Source: Novosphingobium sp. MW5 (GTDB lineage: Bacteria; Pseudomonadota; Alphaproteobacteria; Sphingomonadales; Sphingomonadaceae). Taken from it: DNA of 64,000 bases. The stretch is taken from positions 3,038,001 to 3,102,000 of the forward strand of contig JAPCWB010000001.1 in assembly GCA_025938935.1 (NCBI GenBank), in the 5' to 3' direction. The notes beneath the pieces were generated by a model, which did no database searches, was not told the origin of the DNA, and saw only the letters and a program-made list of their open reading frames with translations. The position numbers were made by a program, and so were the translations under genes. Positions 32,987-39,023 of the stretch are shown here, piece by piece (within the stretch, counting starts at the first letter, position 1; the number at the start of each line of letters is the position of its first letter).

Positions 32987-34537
32987 GTGGAATCCATCAC
33001 CATCGACGGGTTGCACGAAGACGCCTTTCGCCAGTCCATCGAGGACATGCTGCGGCGCGGCTATGCCGACGACGCGGCGGCGAAGCTGCGCGCCCTGCTC
33101 CAGCCTTTCACGGGCGAAGGGGCGCCGTTTCCTGCGCGTTTCATGGACGTATCCCACCAGGATATCGAGATTTCCGGCTGGGAAGCGCTCGATGAAGGCC
33201 TGAAGAAATTTGACCGCGCCGAACAGCTGGTGACCGCGATCTGCCTGTCCTTCGGCGATCCAGAAGGGCGCGCGCCAGTGCCCGATGGTGCCGGGCTGAT
33301 GAGCCTGACGGTCGAAACCGCATATTTCTCCGACGAGGCCTTTCCCTTTTCCGAATCGGACCGCAATGACCTGCTGGACGGCTATTCCTCGTTCGGCTGC
33401 CAGTGGGCCGGCGATTGCGAAGGCGTTGACCATGCCATCGCTTTCCGCGGGGTAGATGACCTTTACGGGGCCCTGGCCGGGCTAGAGCAGCGCCTGCTCT
33501 CCGCGCCGCAGCCCGATCCCGAGGAAATCCGCGCCGGGACCATCGCCTCGTGCTACCTCTCGGTCCTGTTCCACAAGGCCCTGCGGGAAAGCTTCGCCAA
33601 GCGGCGGCTCGGCCGCCCGCTCTGCGTGCTCACTGCGAACAACGGCGTCTATCCCTCGTTCGATGCGCCCGTCCTGTCCTGCGATGAATACCTTGCCGGC
33701 GGCGAAGTGGTGCCGGTGCCCGCCGCCGCTCCAGTCGAGATCGTTTCCGAAGACAGCTTTGCCCCCGCCCACGCCGCCATGGACGACGAGGAAGGCAGCG
33801 AAGAGGCCAGTCTGCTCAGCATCGGCATCAAGCGCAGTTCGAAGAAGCTGGCGCTCGCCCTTGCGGAGGGTGATGACGACCACAGCATCGATGCCATGGC
33901 CAATGCGGCACTCGGTGGAGTGCTACCGCCGCTGCCGGTCGAGCCGGCACCGGTGGCCGCCGATCCCTTCGATTACCGCCCGTACCTCGAACAGGCCGAG
34001 GCCCAGCCGCCGGTCGAAGACGTATTCGAAGACCCGGCCAGCTTCGTCGAACTGCCGGTCGAACCCGCTCCGCAGGTCGAGCCCGACGAACCCGCGCCTG
34101 CGGCCGAACTCCCGCCTGCCGAGCCTGAGCCGGAGGCCGAGCCGGTCGCAACGGTAGAGCCGATCAACCAGGAAGCGCCCGAGCGGACGCCCTTTGTTTC
34201 CCCAGAACCAGAGATCTGGATCGAACCGGCCAAATCATCGCCGACCGAAGCCTACCAACCCTTGCCTGTGGTTCCTGATAGCGAACGCGAGCTTGGCGAT
34301 ACGATCTGGCCCGAGCGCGAAGAAAACCCCGCCGTCCAAGCCGAGGACATCGCCCCATTCGAACCGGCCGCACCGCCGTCTGCGCCAGCCGCGCGTCGCG
34401 AATTCCCGCAGCAGGCCGGACACAGCCTGCGCGCCAGGATCAGCGGCGGCAGCGACGAGGGGCCGGCCTCGAAGCCGGCCACCGAATCGCTGTTGGCAAA
34501 GCTGATCGGCACCATCCGCGGCCTGTTTCGCCGCTGA
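32987..34537 (+). CDS. Conserved hypothetical with acidic Pro/Glu-rich C-terminal region
   Basis: 516 residues from GTG 32987, supported by AGGAGAC 7 bases upstream. Residues 1-245 look like a globular domain (LHEDAFRQSIEDMLRRGYAD; DGYSSFGCQWAGDCEGVDHA; NGVYPSFDAPVLSCDEYLAG). From ~245 on the chain is disordered, dominated by Pro, Glu, Ala and Val in repeated PVEPAP and PEPE-type units, and ends with a short basic/hydrophobic tail (LLAKLIGTIRGLFRR) that could be amphipathic. No signal peptide or family was recognised. It may be a scaffold that touches the membrane through its tail; that is speculation. Confidence 0.7.
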   Translation: MESITIDGLHEDAFRQSIEDMLRRGYADDAAAKLRALLQPFTGEGAPFPARFMDVSHQDIEISGWEALDEGLKKFDRAEQLVTAICLSFGDPEGRAPVPDGAGLMSLTVETAYFSDEAFPFSESDRNDLLDGYSSFGCQWAGDCEGVDHAIAFRGVDDLYGALAGLEQRLLSAPQPDPEEIRAGTIASCYLSVLFHKALRESFAKRRLGRPLCVLTANNGVYPSFDAPVLSCDEYLAGGEVVPVPAAAPVEIVSEDSFAPAHAAMDDEEGSEEASLLSIGIKRSSKKLALALAEGDDDHSIDAMANAALGGVLPPLPVEPAPVAADPFDYRPYLEQAEAQPPVEDVFEDPASFVELPVEPAPQVEPDEPAPAAELPPAEPEPEAEPVATVEPINQEAPERTPFVSPEPEIWIEPAKSSPTEAYQPLPVVPDSERELGDTIWPEREENPAVQAEDIAPFEPAAPPSAPAARREFPQQAGHSLRARISGGSDEGPASKPATESLLAKLIGTIRGLFRR

Positions 34538-36339: not shown

Positions 36340-36726
36340 TTGTTCAAGTGGAAAAAATCATCTGCCACCGAGGTGGTGGACCTAGCCGCGTTTGCGCAGC
36401 GGTTGCTGCACTATCGGCAAATGCGCGTCGAGTTTTTCGAAAGCGAAGCTATTGCCGCAGGCGGATGGGACCTGCTGCTGCTCTTATACAGTGCAGAACC
36501 GGGGTCAGTCACAGTCGGTTCCGCTGCACGGGCGCTTGGCGTACCAAGCGCCGATGCCCTGAGCGCCGCTGAACGCATCAGCCATTATCGATTGGCAACG
36601 CAGGGCGATTCCCCGCATGACTGGGAAGACATTCCGCTGACGCTGACGACCACCGGACGCGAGGCGCTCGAGAAATATCTGCGCCAATTCTCCAGGTCTT
36701 GCGAGGAATCCCCCACCGCTGCGTGA
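36340..36726 (+). CDS. Small MarR/winged-helix-like protein
   Basis: 128 residues from TTG 36340; no better start is present. The predicted order of helices resembles a small winged helix: WDLLLLLYSAEPGSVTVGSAARALGV, then SADALSAAERISHY, and the LTLTTTGREALEKYL wing typical of MarR-like proteins. An N-terminal FKWKKSS precedes it. Similar sphingomonad proteins are annotated only as hypothetical regulators. It converges on the exosortase locus (6-base gap) and is divergent from lysK over 200 bases. Confidence 0.55.
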   Translation: MFKWKKSSATEVVDLAAFAQRLLHYRQMRVEFFESEAIAAGGWDLLLLLYSAEPGSVTVGSAARALGVPSADALSAAERISHYRLATQGDSPHDWEDIPLTLTTTGREALEKYLRQFSRSCEESPTAA

Positions 36727-36732
36727 CCGGCG

Positions 36733-37233
36733 CTAGCGACGGGGCGAAACTTTGGGCCAGGTGACCTGTCGGCCAAAGTCGATGGCGCCAAGATCGCATT
36801 CTGAAGAGGCGGCAATCGCCAGTGGCTGCTCGCTTGTCTGCGCGAGGCCGAGCCGGAGCGCAATGCGGTTGAACAGGTTCGCCAGGTCGTACCAGCCCCG
36901 CGGGAAGCCATCCCGCAGTTGGCCTGCATAGCGATAGCGCAGCACTGGCAGGTCAGCCGCGACCTTGCGGAAGCTCGTGCCGAGGTCAGCAGAGGATTCG
37001 CTGCGCAGGACCATGCGGCAGTTACCGCGCACCGCGTGGACAACGTCCAGATCAAGCACCTTGTCCTCGATCCGGACAGAAAAGCCCTGCGCTTCGAGCT
37101 TGCGCGCCAGGTCAGAATTGAACCGGGCAATATCCGGCTCGGTCGCAAGATCGAGCACCAGCGCCTTCGTACCCAGCGACAGGCCGAGCAAAACGGCGCC
37201 AAGCAGGCTAAAGGCGGCGGGGCGCGAGAGCAT
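36733..37233 (-). CDS. Membrane-anchored periplasmic protein of the exosortase locus
   Basis: 166 residues from ATG 37233, which lies inside the last codons of the exosortase gene (26-base overlap), so it is probably translated with it. One N-terminal helix (AAFSLLGAVLLGLSLGTKALVL) anchors a periplasmic domain of ~135 residues with EAQGFSVRIEDKVLDLDVVHA and two cysteines (GNCRMVL, SSECDLG) that could form a disulfide. Family not recognised. The position suggests an accessory protein for sorting, for example recruiting the substrate or receiving the processed product; this is inference. Confidence 0.7.
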   Translation of the reverse strand: MLSRPAAFSLLGAVLLGLSLGTKALVLDLATEPDIARFNSDLARKLEAQGFSVRIEDKVLDLDVVHAVRGNCRMVLRSESSADLGTSFRKVAADLPVLRYRYAGQLRDGFPRGWYDLANLFNRIALRLGLAQTSEQPLAIAASSECDLGAIDFGRQVTWPKVSPRR

Positions 37234-38029
37234 GCGAACCCAAGGTTACGACCACGGCGACCGTGACCACCGCAAGCCAGGCGAAGAGCGTGCCGCCACC
37301 GCCGGTGTGCCAATAGTCGAACTCTGACTGGTTGTGCGCAATCATGGTCAGACGCAGGCCGTTGACGAAGATGTTGGCCGTCACCGCCCCTGCCAGCATC
37401 AGCAGCGACCGCCAGCCGAAAGGCACGCACAGCAGCTGCGTCATCGCGGTCCAAAACTGCACCGCCATGGTAAAATTGTGCATCGATGAACACCCATAGG
37501 CGATCAGCATCGGCTTTCCGCCATCGCTGAAATCGACAAGGTTGCCGCGCGCGCTGGTTCCCGCGAGCCAGGCAACGAAGCTGCCGTCGAGCTCGACGAT
37601 GCGGTCACCCAGGAACATCAGGGCAAAATGCCCCCAGATGAGCGAGGCCGTCAGCGCAAGGAGGATCAGGCCCGAACGGCGCCCCCGGCTACCCTTGCCG
37701 CTCGTCCAGCTCAGCCAGCCGCCAGCCAGCAGGACACCTGCCGATCCGGCCGAGACCACCGGCGTAAACGCCAGCGCAAAGACAACGGCGACCACGATGC
37801 AGTCGCCTCGGGTCATCCGCTGCTCTGCGCCCGGCTCGAAAGCGATCACGAGGGCGACCAGGATGGCAAACCAGAAAACGGGGTTGATGCCCCCGGTATT
37901 GGCAAGCGCCGCAAGCGGACCCATGCGCTCCGCCGCGCCCAAGACAGGCGCGGCGACTCCATTGCAGGCCGCAATGGCCGCCGCGAGCGTCAGCCAGTGG
38001 CTGCGATCGCGGCCGAGCGCCCCGATCAT
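37208..38029 (-). CDS. Exosortase (PEP-CTERM-specific transpeptidase-like)
   Basis: 273 residues with about eight membrane segments. The catalytic triad of the exosortase/archaeosortase family is visible: Cys180 in LIAYGCSSMHN, Arg226 in VNGLRLTMI, and His241 in DYWHTGGGG. Exosortases cleave and probably transfer proteins at a C-terminal PEP-CTERM signal in the inner membrane. The ATG overlaps the stop of a tiny PEP-CTERM gene (ATGA, 38026-38029), and its end overlaps the next gene. Subclass is not assigned. No EpsI or large polysaccharide cluster adjoins it. Confidence 0.85.
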   Translation of the reverse strand: MIGALGRDRSHWLTLAAAIAACNGVAAPVLGAAERMGPLAALANTGGINPVFWFAILVALVIAFEPGAEQRMTRGDCIVVAVVFALAFTPVVSAGSAGVLLAGGWLSWTSGKGSRGRRSGLILLALTASLIWGHFALMFLGDRIVELDGSFVAWLAGTSARGNLVDFSDGGKPMLIAYGCSSMHNFTMAVQFWTAMTQLLCVPFGWRSLLMLAGAVTANIFVNGLRLTMIAHNQSEFDYWHTGGGGTLFAWLAVVTVAVVVTLGSHALAPRRL

Positions 38030-38199
38030 CCCCGCTTGGTGCGGCCGCGCAGGTAGCGAAGGCCTGCTGCCATCATGCCGAGCGCGACGAGGCCGCCGGC
38101 CACTTCGGGTTCGGGCGTGGGGCCGTTGATGCCGGCAAAGGCCGGGCTAGCGGCGAAGGCAGTGATCAGGGCAAAGGTCGCGGCGGAAAACTTGTTCAT
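38026..38199 (-). CDS. 57-residue PEP-CTERM precursor, almost without cargo
   Basis: Start ATG 38199 with GGGGA 8 bases upstream. Signal peptide 1-22 (MNKFSAATFALITAFAASPA, cleavage after AFA). Then only GINGPT before the motif PEP at residues 29-31. A hydrophobic helix at ~33-47 (VAGGLVALGMMAAGL) and a basic tail (RYLRGRTKRG) complete a canonical PEP-CTERM sorting signal. The exosortase gene overlaps its stop by four bases. Either the product is an oligopeptide of about six to eight residues, or the protein primes or tests the exosortase. Too short for many gene callers. Confidence 0.85.
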   Translation of the reverse strand: MNKFSAATFALITAFAASPAFAGINGPTPEPEVAGGLVALGMMAAGLRYLRGRTKRG

Positions 38200-38309
38200 G
38201 GAAATATCCCCAGATGCAAAAGGTCCGGCCAGCCTAGCTTCGGCCCGGAAGGGCAAAAGGCCATGGTTATGGCTGAGACAGGGCCGGCCGCTTGGGGCAT
38301 CGCAGCGCG

Positions 38310-39023
38310 ATGGTTGTCCTCTTGCCCATCCTGGTCTTCGCCGTCCTGCTTGGCTGGCAGGAGCTTGCGCCTGACCGCCGCACTGCGCGCACGGACTGGC
38401 GGCGCATGGCGACCAACTGGGCTCTTGGCATCGGCAACTGGCTGATGGCGGCCTTGATCCCGGTGAGCGCGCTAGCGGCTTCATGGGCCAGCCCCTCACC
38501 CCTGCTGGACGGCCTGCCTATGCTGCTGGCATTGGCCCTGCTGGTCCTGGCGCGCAGCCTTGCCTCGTACTGGCTTCACCGTTTGGCGCATGAGTGGCCC
38601 TGGCTCTGGCAGGTGCACAGGCTGCATCATTCCGATCGCGAGATCGACATGACCACGGCCCTGCGTAGCCATCCCATCGAGGCACTGATCGCCGCGGCAA
38701 TGGCGGCGCTGGTCGTCGCTTTGCTGGGTGCAGGGCCGACGGAGACCCTTGCCGCCGATGCCCTGCTGTTCAGTGCCACGTTATGGCACCATGCCGCGAT
38801 CCGCATGCCCCGCCGCTGGAGCGCCGTGCTTGAGCGCGTTGTCGTCACGCCGCGTTTTCACCGACTGCACCACTCGGTCCGCCCGGATGATCATGACCGC
38901 AACTACGGCGACCTGCTGACGGTTTGGGACCGAATGTTCGGCACGTTCAAACCGCCTAGGCGCGGGCCTTTCGCCGTGGGACTTGTGGAAAGCCGCGCCC
39001 CGGAGGTCCTTCGCGCCCACTGA
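38310..39023 (+). CDS. Sterol desaturase / fatty acid hydroxylase family protein
   Basis: 237 residues from ATG 38310; TTG 38292 in frame is an alternative start. Membrane di-iron enzyme: histidine clusters HRLAHEWPWLWQVHRLHHS near residues 88-106 and WHHAAI and RFHRLHHS further on give the HxxxH / HxxHH pattern. Hydrophobic helices flank them. The family hydroxylates or desaturates lipids, including carotenoids in sphingomonads. It is divergent from the exosortase locus (about 110 bases); the shared upstream region may hold both promoters. The substrate is unknown. Confidence 0.85.
   Translation: MVVLLPILVFAVLLGWQELAPDRRTARTDWRRMATNWALGIGNWLMAALIPVSALAASWASPSPLLDGLPMLLALALLVLARSLASYWLHRLAHEWPWLWQVHRLHHSDREIDMTTALRSHPIEALIAAAMAALVVALLGAGPTETLAADALLFSATLWHHAAIRMPRRWSAVLERVVVTPRFHRLHHSVRPDDHDRNYGDLLTVWDRMFGTFKPPRRGPFAVGLVESRAPEVLRAH

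Follow-up and report, generated by a model that had tools for sequence, protein, structure and literature searches.

A compact exosortase-like module with a peptide-sized precursor and a divergent hydroxylase gene in Novosphingobium sp. MW5

What can an exosortase do with a precursor whose cargo is nearly absent? The question is raised by a locus in a stretch of 64,000 nucleotides (hereafter, the window) of the genome of Novosphingobium sp. MW5 (contig JAPCWB010000001.1, positions 3,038,001 to 3,102,000 of the forward strand), where three overlapping minus-strand genes encode a precursor with a peptide-sized cargo (the micro-precursor), an exosortase-like membrane protein and a third protein. 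A first-pass annotation, made from the sequence alone, had read them as a dedicated module of one enzyme and one substrate, and the coordinates and strand that it gave for the three genes are borne out (Table 1), together with their overlaps: the stop codon of the precursor gene and the ATG of the exosortase gene share the letters ATGA, and a stretch of 26 bases is common to the exosortase gene and the third gene. The three genes are real, but their description was incomplete, since a divergently transcribed fatty-acid hydroxylase gene, which had been missed, belongs to the module. As far as our searches show, the combination of a peptide-sized substrate with a fixed hydroxylase partner is undescribed; exosortase-like enzymes and short sorting signals, taken separately, are known. 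The reading that we prefer, at roughly even chances, is that of a dedicated module, built around an exosortase of unnamed subtype, whose product would be a very short lipopeptide made by way of a hydroxylase-modified lipid acceptor.

The micro-precursor, its enzyme and the hydroxylase gene

By reading and alignment, all of the 18 micro-precursors found at 13 loci consist of a signal peptide, a cargo, a PxP motif, a hydrophobic stretch and a basic tail. In general terms, their consensus is a signal peptide ending in AxA (A20 and A22 are invariant in the 13 aligned rows), four to seven residues, P[EAGSR]P[EVI], a short hydrophobic stretch, a Tyr in most of them and a basic end. The window precursor has six residues (GINGPT) between the predicted signal-peptidase site and PxP, and the cargos of the remaining ones are GLAPAT, GTPIT, GQTNVA, GLPAT (twice), GMPI, GVPAT, GVAV, GIPV, GIGTPGV, GGTNAV, GPAAA, TKFV, FEVV, GSVVV, ELAPV and STVVV, with Gly as the first residue in 14 of the 18. 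The cleavage sites behind these cargos were predicted from the AxA rule together with the aligned AxA column; the simple rule misplaced them in L003, L028 and one L080 precursor, for which the aligned column (by eye for L080) gives GLAPAT, GVPAT and GPAAA, respectively.

Tandem arrays of precursors are found in two genomes, with three in a Sphingomicrobium metagenome-assembled genome (MAG; L080) and four in an Erythrobacteraceae MAG (L058/L083), and within them the sorting end is nearly constant while the cargo varies. The idea of one enzyme and one substrate holds for the own genome, because the precursor profile finds just two precursors there, each of them with an exosortase of its own alongside (E 1.8e-20 and 1.9e-20; next best, 0.34), but it is not universal, given the three tandem precursors of one MAG and the four plus an orphan of the other. 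That the tiny gene might be a chance open reading frame (ORF) is ruled out by the alignment, the recurrence of the profile, the codon differences and the match with the exosortase-bearing genomes; the precursor codons of L026 and L079 differ by 25 synonymous and 5 non-synonymous changes, cargo and sorting end being identical in the protein. When the DNA of these two loci is compared in bins of 60, identity is clearly lower over the hydroxylase and the precursor (~38-54 of 60) than over the exosortase and the third gene (mostly 53-59 of 60).

The hydroxylase of the window reaches 110.1 bits with PF04116 (cut-off, 31) and has the clustered His motifs. A hydroxylase of this type is divergent from the precursor at 12 of the 12 assessable loci (the window, L003, L024, L025, L026, L027, L028, L029, L060, L079, L080 and the orphan L169), out of 13 in all, the four-gene array of L058 being unassessable because it ends ~200 bp from the contig edge. 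The orphan (L169:1495-2545, G841:C19; E 9.6e-12) is the fifth precursor of genome G841, on another contig, and the one exosortase of the family found in that genome is encoded on a different contig from it. It is nonetheless divergent from a hydroxylase gene whose product reaches 101.3 bits with PF04116 and 219.7 bits with the module-hydroxylase profile, and whose eleven best BLAST matches among 20 hydroxylases compared are the eleven module hydroxylases. That profile, built without the L079, L080 and orphan sequences, gives 249-391 bits for the eleven module members and at most 114 bits for the nine non-module hydroxylases of the own genome, which has 11 PF04116 genes in all, so that a chance neighbour is improbable at each single locus.

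Within the fetched stretches, no hydroxylase was found at eight loci with long substrates (L023, L057, L059, L008, L048, L049, L050, which is a 4.9-kb contig, and L056) nor at seven without a recognised substrate (L007, L009 and L051-L055); with L058, these are the 16 that complete, beside nine loci with a hydroxylase, the set of 25 homologous loci. Fisher's test on 11/11 against 0/8 (orphan left out) gives 1.3e-5, a value that is only indicative because the loci are not independent. The long substrates of two sister Sphingomonas modules without hydroxylase (L023:8072-8443 and L057:6323-6640) are Gly/His-rich and have signal peptides and a PAPIAGLG sorting end, and another one with a similar end lies beside the sister exosortase of L059.

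Regarding the enzyme, Cys180, Arg226 and His241 are invariant across 12 aligned homologues, and the motifs of the window protein are CSS, NGLR and HTGGG. According to Haft 2006 (PMC1569441), CxG, NxxR and HxxxG are the invariant motifs of EpsH, and all 18 canonical frames compared show CSG...NxxR...HxxxG; the window enzyme has CSS in place of CxG, a Ser for Gly common to nearly all of the 12 aligned relatives, with NxxR and HxxxG intact. An hhalign comparison of 20 family members with 18 canonical exosortases gives a probability of 92.9% (E 3.6e-7) after dropping, from 26 candidate canonical frames, the eight without a CSG-like motif, and 87.8% (E 3.3e-6) without that cleaning. In this alignment the catalytic triad proposed by the first-pass annotation stands in part: Cys180 and N223/R226 line up with the canonical columns, but His241 falls a few residues before the canonical His, even though it is within the same HxxxG motif. 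TIGR04178, the exosortase/archaeosortase signature, is matched at E <= 0.01 by 12 of 13 family members, with 22.8 bits for the window enzyme (cut-off, 23) and 26.9 for its paralogue. No subtype model is above cut-off for either of them, the best being cyanoexosortase A (TIGR03763; 28.2 and 31.6 bits, respectively, against 150). We take the window enzyme to be an unnamed exosortase subtype. Its AlphaFold2 model is a confident multi-helix protein (pLDDT 88.6), for which the PDB gave no match by sequence and uninformative ones by fold (best Foldseek E 0.18, VIA-align Z 6.7). The exosortase tree is mostly unresolved, with starred nodes for a Gly-rich Sphingomonas clade, a Rhizobium/Microvirga-type clade and a few smaller groups.

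The third protein and the genomic setting

The third protein, which the first-pass annotation could place in no family, has no match in Pfam or NCBIfam. In its predicted structure, a single membrane helix at the N-terminus is followed by a compact alpha/beta domain (pLDDT 82, pTM 0.72), and G50, C72 and C146 are invariant in 18 aligned rows, the two Cys residues possibly forming a disulfide bond. It follows the exosortase at 21 of the 25 homologous loci, a count that includes a weak match in L056 (E 0.0074) and a fused form on a Microvirga ossetica plasmid (L008:5788-7227), where exosortase and third protein are one ORF of 479 aa. Upstream of the latter there are two substrate genes on opposite strands, both ending in VPGPIAGAGLP, and downstream a transposase-like ORF. 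Position and fusion are the traits of EpsI, and by this placement only the third protein is an EpsI-like partner. Its identification as EpsI by sequence is unsupported by either sequence or profile similarity: at E <= 0.1, none of 18 third proteins matches the EpsI model (TIGR02914) in NCBIfam, and hhalign of 20 third proteins against 30 EpsI gives a probability of 0.14%. The order of strands and helices in both is similar by eye, which is not a test. PDB searches with the third protein gave three chance-level rows by sequence and uninformative matches by fold (best Foldseek E 0.09, VIA-align Z 4.5).

A further complete module is encoded in the own genome (G000; 4.0 Mb in 7 contigs) at ~C1:3023.5-3025.9 kb, at a distance of 51 kb from that of the window; it comprises a third protein, an exosortase (36% identical), a precursor of 58 aa and a hydroxylase in divergent orientation. 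Neither copy has a recognised polysaccharide gene next to it, so that the absence of adjoining exopolysaccharide genes had been correctly noted; however, a canonical XrtA-EpsI fusion is encoded elsewhere in the genome (L072:7562-9286; G000:C1 ~2853.6-2855.3 kb; 328.6 bits with the XrtA model, cut-off 208), close to the genes for the XrtA-associated amidotransferase and ATPase, in what is by eye a polysaccharide cluster, and a Rhizobium relative of the window enzyme (L007) sits among glycosyltransferase genes. Further PEP-CTERM proteins, sought in the own genome with TIGR02595, amount to two frames above cut-off: a Ser-rich protein of 491 aa (L073:5494-6966; 18.5 against 16 bits) with Ser/Gly repeats and a PEP-CTERM-like end, which is the sole plausible canonical substrate found there, and a frame of 64 aa in which no signal peptide was seen.

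How widespread is the module? The three-gene order recurs in other Sphingomonadales, so that the conservation on which the first-pass reading depended is borne out, with the reservation that a BLAST-level search found no match in any of 60 relatives, 36 of them of the same genus. The exosortase profile (E <= 0.001) finds 12 of 396 genomes of the order (the own one, seven with E <= 4e-48 and four weak), nine of 385 of the class and eight of 397 of the family, the own one included in each case. With the precursor profile (E <= 1e-4), ten of 372 Sphingomonadaceae genomes match. Eight of them are all of those in which the exosortase was found, five with full-length precursors (G000, G236, G374, G841 and G1000) and three with the sorting end only, on a long Gly-rich or similar substrate (G322, G807 and G859); the other two have partial matches inside unrelated long frames. 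The two family samples were drawn separately and a large overlap is assumed; absences in these searches are not absolute, because at most 6 (exosortase) or 17 (precursor) candidates were scored per genome. A contig scan with one peptide pattern, which is not a census, confirmed 9 loci of 27 candidates, and the plasmid search covered three records only. Named hosts of the enzyme family include Sphingomonas caeni, S. psychrolutea, S. oligoaromativorans, S. formosensis and Erythrobacteraceae and Sphingomicrobium MAGs.

The window module belongs to a lysS-helicase locus. In 11 of 12 same-genus relatives both anchors are within 11.6 kb, with no match to exosortase, third protein or hydroxylase (in the twelfth the contig is too short), and the interval ranges from <1 to ~7 kb among these 11 genomes (L111-L122), so it may be a site of gene turnover. 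The module is at the same place in L026 and L079, and near lysS in another arrangement in L024, a pattern that would agree with a module lost from most members of the genus, or with one inserted several times at a single site. When all ORFs of at least 100 aa in the fetched stretches around the 13 precursor loci were clustered, nothing recurred at five or more loci apart from the hydroxylase, the exosortase, the third protein and ORFs that run antisense to genes of the module or its neighbours. lysS recurs at four (the window, L024, L026 and L079), and so do genes that we take to encode an electron-transfer flavoprotein (L024, L026, L027 and L060), both of which are read as a shared chromosomal neighbourhood.

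Table 1. Features of the module in the window, numbered from its first nucleotide
Feature	Positions	Strand	Remarks
Micro-precursor, 57 aa	38026..38199	-	Predicted signal peptide 1-22 ending in AFA; cargo GINGPT 23-28; PEPEVAG sorting signal
C-terminus of the micro-precursor	within 38026..38199	-	PEPEVAG, then short hydrophobic stretch, then basic tail
Cargo and PEP codons	38107..38133	-	GINGPT 38116-38133; PEP motif 38107-38115; signal-peptidase site by AxA rule
Exosortase-like membrane protein, 273 aa	37208..38029	-	Motifs CSS (Cys180), NxxR (Arg226), HxxxG (His241)
Presumed catalytic Cys180 codon	37490..37492	-	Arg226 codon 37352-37354; His241 codon 37307-37309
Third protein, 166 aa, predicted single-pass periplasmic partner	36733..37233	-	Position-equivalent of EpsI
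Fatty-acid hydroxylase (PF04116), divergent	38310..39023	+	HRLAH, HRLHH, HRLHH; nearest named family OlsE
Upstream limit of hydroxylase frame	38292	+	Frame open from TTG
Intergenic region, 110 bp	38200..38309		Between precursor and hydroxylase; presumed shared control region

Beside the third gene, a convergent ORF of 128 aa (36340-36726) has a sub-threshold MarR match only. It was considered as part of the module and rejected: it has no Pfam match above cut-off, and it is unmatched at the lysS locus of the 12 same-genus relatives and at L026. Adjoining lysS there is also an ORF of 516 aa (32987-34537) without Pfam match.

A short lipopeptide and its alternatives

In the lipopeptide reading, the precursor would be exported by Sec, cut after AFA by signal peptidase I and held by its C-terminal helix in the inner membrane, GINGPT-PEP facing the periplasm. 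The exosortase (Cys180/Arg226/His241) would attack at or beside PxP, forming a thioester with the short peptide, and a peptide of ~6 residues (longer if PxP is retained) would be passed to an acceptor, the likeliest being a membrane lipid on which the divergent di-iron hydroxylase has acted. The third protein, anchored beside the enzyme, would be a periplasmic partner holding or presenting the precursor or the acceptor, in the place of EpsI, and the outcome would be a lipopeptide of ribosomal origin and very small size. Gene order, motifs, their recurrence, the joint occurrence of enzyme and precursor and the pairing of precursor with hydroxylase are observations, from which cleavage, acceptor, lipid step and biological role are inferred. 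The lipid step is proposed because of the pairing of precursor and hydroxylase and because of the precedent of archaeosortase A (PMC7157517); on this basis the peptide-sized products are probably lipid-linked, with a putative cleavage site and a putative acceptor. We would extend this only tentatively to exosortases adapted to make ribosomal lipopeptides of ~4-10 residues, with a hydroxylase-tailored lipid and tandem genes varying the peptide. It is likewise no more than a suggestion, and a doubtful one, that signal peptidase sets the N-terminus of such peptides and the exosortase their C-terminus, which it would link to the lipid.

Several observations weigh against the lipopeptide. The sorting signal of the window precursor scores under the curated PEP-CTERM cut-offs (12.3 against 16 bits for TIGR02595; 13.6 against 20.7 for PF07589), and in a 19-residue hydropathy scan only its signal peptide exceeds 1.3, the C-terminal stretch being below; the window enzyme itself, with CSS instead of CxG, is just short of the TIGR04178 cut-off. 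A tree of 20 hydroxylases (mostly unresolved) does not bring the module members together in a single clade and, as the exosortase tree is mostly unresolved too, the direction of change cannot be given. The start of the hydroxylase is unsure in L025, L026, L029, L060 and L079, where its frame extends into the precursor gene or lacks an ATG close to the start. Furthermore, the loci are not independent, all of them coming from one order, with L026 and L079 as near relatives; the action of the hydroxylase on lipids could have a purpose of its own, linked to the module but distinct from it; and cleavage, product and lipid linkage are predicted, as would be any biological role built on them.

Could the peptide be the end product in itself? 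This is the main rival reading: the exosortase might be a plain protease that frees a secreted, pheromone-like signal of 4-10 residues, the hydroxylase being co-regulated and acting on bulk lipids. The variation of the cargo between copies, with conserved flanking signals, is what would be expected from peptides that carry specificity, and it extends to the arrays (TKFV, FEVV, GSVVV and ELAPV in one; GIGTPGV, GGTNAV and GPAAA in the other). However, no further gene family, such as that of a receptor or transporter, recurs at five or more of the 13 loci (in the fetched stretches, where a partner encoded elsewhere would be missed), the cargo is small and mostly non-polar, and the presence of the hydroxylase at all 12 assessable loci is left unexplained, all of which makes a free signal rather unlikely in our view. 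It is also conceivable, although improbable, that the tiny protein is no substrate and acts instead as a small regulator in the membrane, or as a subunit, of either hydroxylase or exosortase, as the near absence of cargo and the hydroxylase-precursor pair away from any exosortase of the family (L169) might suggest. This is at odds with the similar sorting region (PAPIAGLGL...) that ends long Gly-rich proteins with signal peptides beside sister exosortases (L023 and L057; similarly L059), with tandem arrays of changing cargo, which are unlike a subunit, and with the fact that the presence of a precursor or a sorting end tracks that of the exosortase.

The module might as well be an ordinary PEP-CTERM system for surface attachment, whose substrate is merely short, given the tripartite C-terminus, the enzyme of the exosortase superfamily and the Rhizobium relative within a polysaccharide cluster (L007). 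We consider this very improbable: four to seven residues leave no protein to attach, the constant neighbour is a hydroxylase and not a glycan gene, no polysaccharide gene was recognised beside either copy, and the genome has its separate canonical XrtA system. The lipopeptide is preferred here to the three alternatives, with the reservations made above.

Relation to known sorting systems

In the literature searched, which left most subscription journals outside, there is no description of exosortase and fatty acid hydroxylase together, nor of exosortase, Sphingomonas and PEP-CTERM together. N-acyl amino acid synthases are reportedly linked to exosortase systems, according to the title of a work by Craig et al. 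2011. To our knowledge, the acceptor of bacterial exosortase substrates is still open, and a system reduced to an enzyme, its partner, a single substrate of peptide size and a constant hydroxylase neighbour comes close to the minimum that could reveal both the acceptor and the site of cleavage. If the product were a short lipopeptide, the task of the exosortase would be to make a small molecule instead of anchoring proteins, and Gram-negative bacteria would have tiny post-translationally modified peptides of a new class. The module suggests that tiny peptides, at the surface or secreted, are made by a route that had gone unrecognised. Modules of this kind readily escape notice, because the precursors have less than 60 aa, the one in the window is under both PEP-CTERM cut-offs and the window exosortase is 0.2 bits short of the general model.

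The closest frame of comparison is EpsH/XrtA with its PEP-CTERM substrates (TIGR03109, TIGR02602; Haft 2006, PMC1569441). Both have a multi-helix membrane enzyme with Cys, NxxR and HxxxG, a substrate with signal peptide, PxP, helix and basic tail, and a partner encoded downstream or fused. Unlike EpsH/XrtA, the module has CSS and not CxG, no adjoining polysaccharide cluster, a divergent hydroxylase and one peptide-sized substrate instead of many proteins, and it scores far under the subtype cut-offs. The partner of the canonical systems, EpsI (TIGR02914), resembles the third protein in having its gene directly downstream of, or fused to, that of the exosortase (PMC1569441), and differs in the absence of detectable sequence or profile similarity. 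Cyanoexosortase A (TIGR03763) is the best subtype by sequence, although the module is far under its 150-bit cut-off. Cyanoexosortase B, with its associated protein (TIGR04533), resembles the module in that a protein of unassigned function is encoded directly downstream of the enzyme; according to PMC12188702, such a gene often comes directly after the exosortase gene in cyanobacteria, and Nostoc punctiforme has many PEP-CTERM proteins, unlike the single substrate of the module.

On the lipid side, the ornithine-lipid hydroxylase OlsE (NF052566) also belongs to PF04116 and is the best named match of both module hydroxylases of the own genome, which are not OlsE itself, since they reach 90.5 and 82.9 bits against an equivalog cut-off of 475. 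The nearest parallel to a sorting enzyme dependent on lipid-synthesis enzymes is archaeosortase A with PssA/PssD: according to PMC7157517, processing and lipidation by archaeosortase A depend on these lipid enzymes, and in Methanosarcina the genes for archaeosortase A and PssA/PssD adjoin. There, the lipid enzymes make the head group, whereas the partner in the module is a hydroxylase and the cargo a few residues long.

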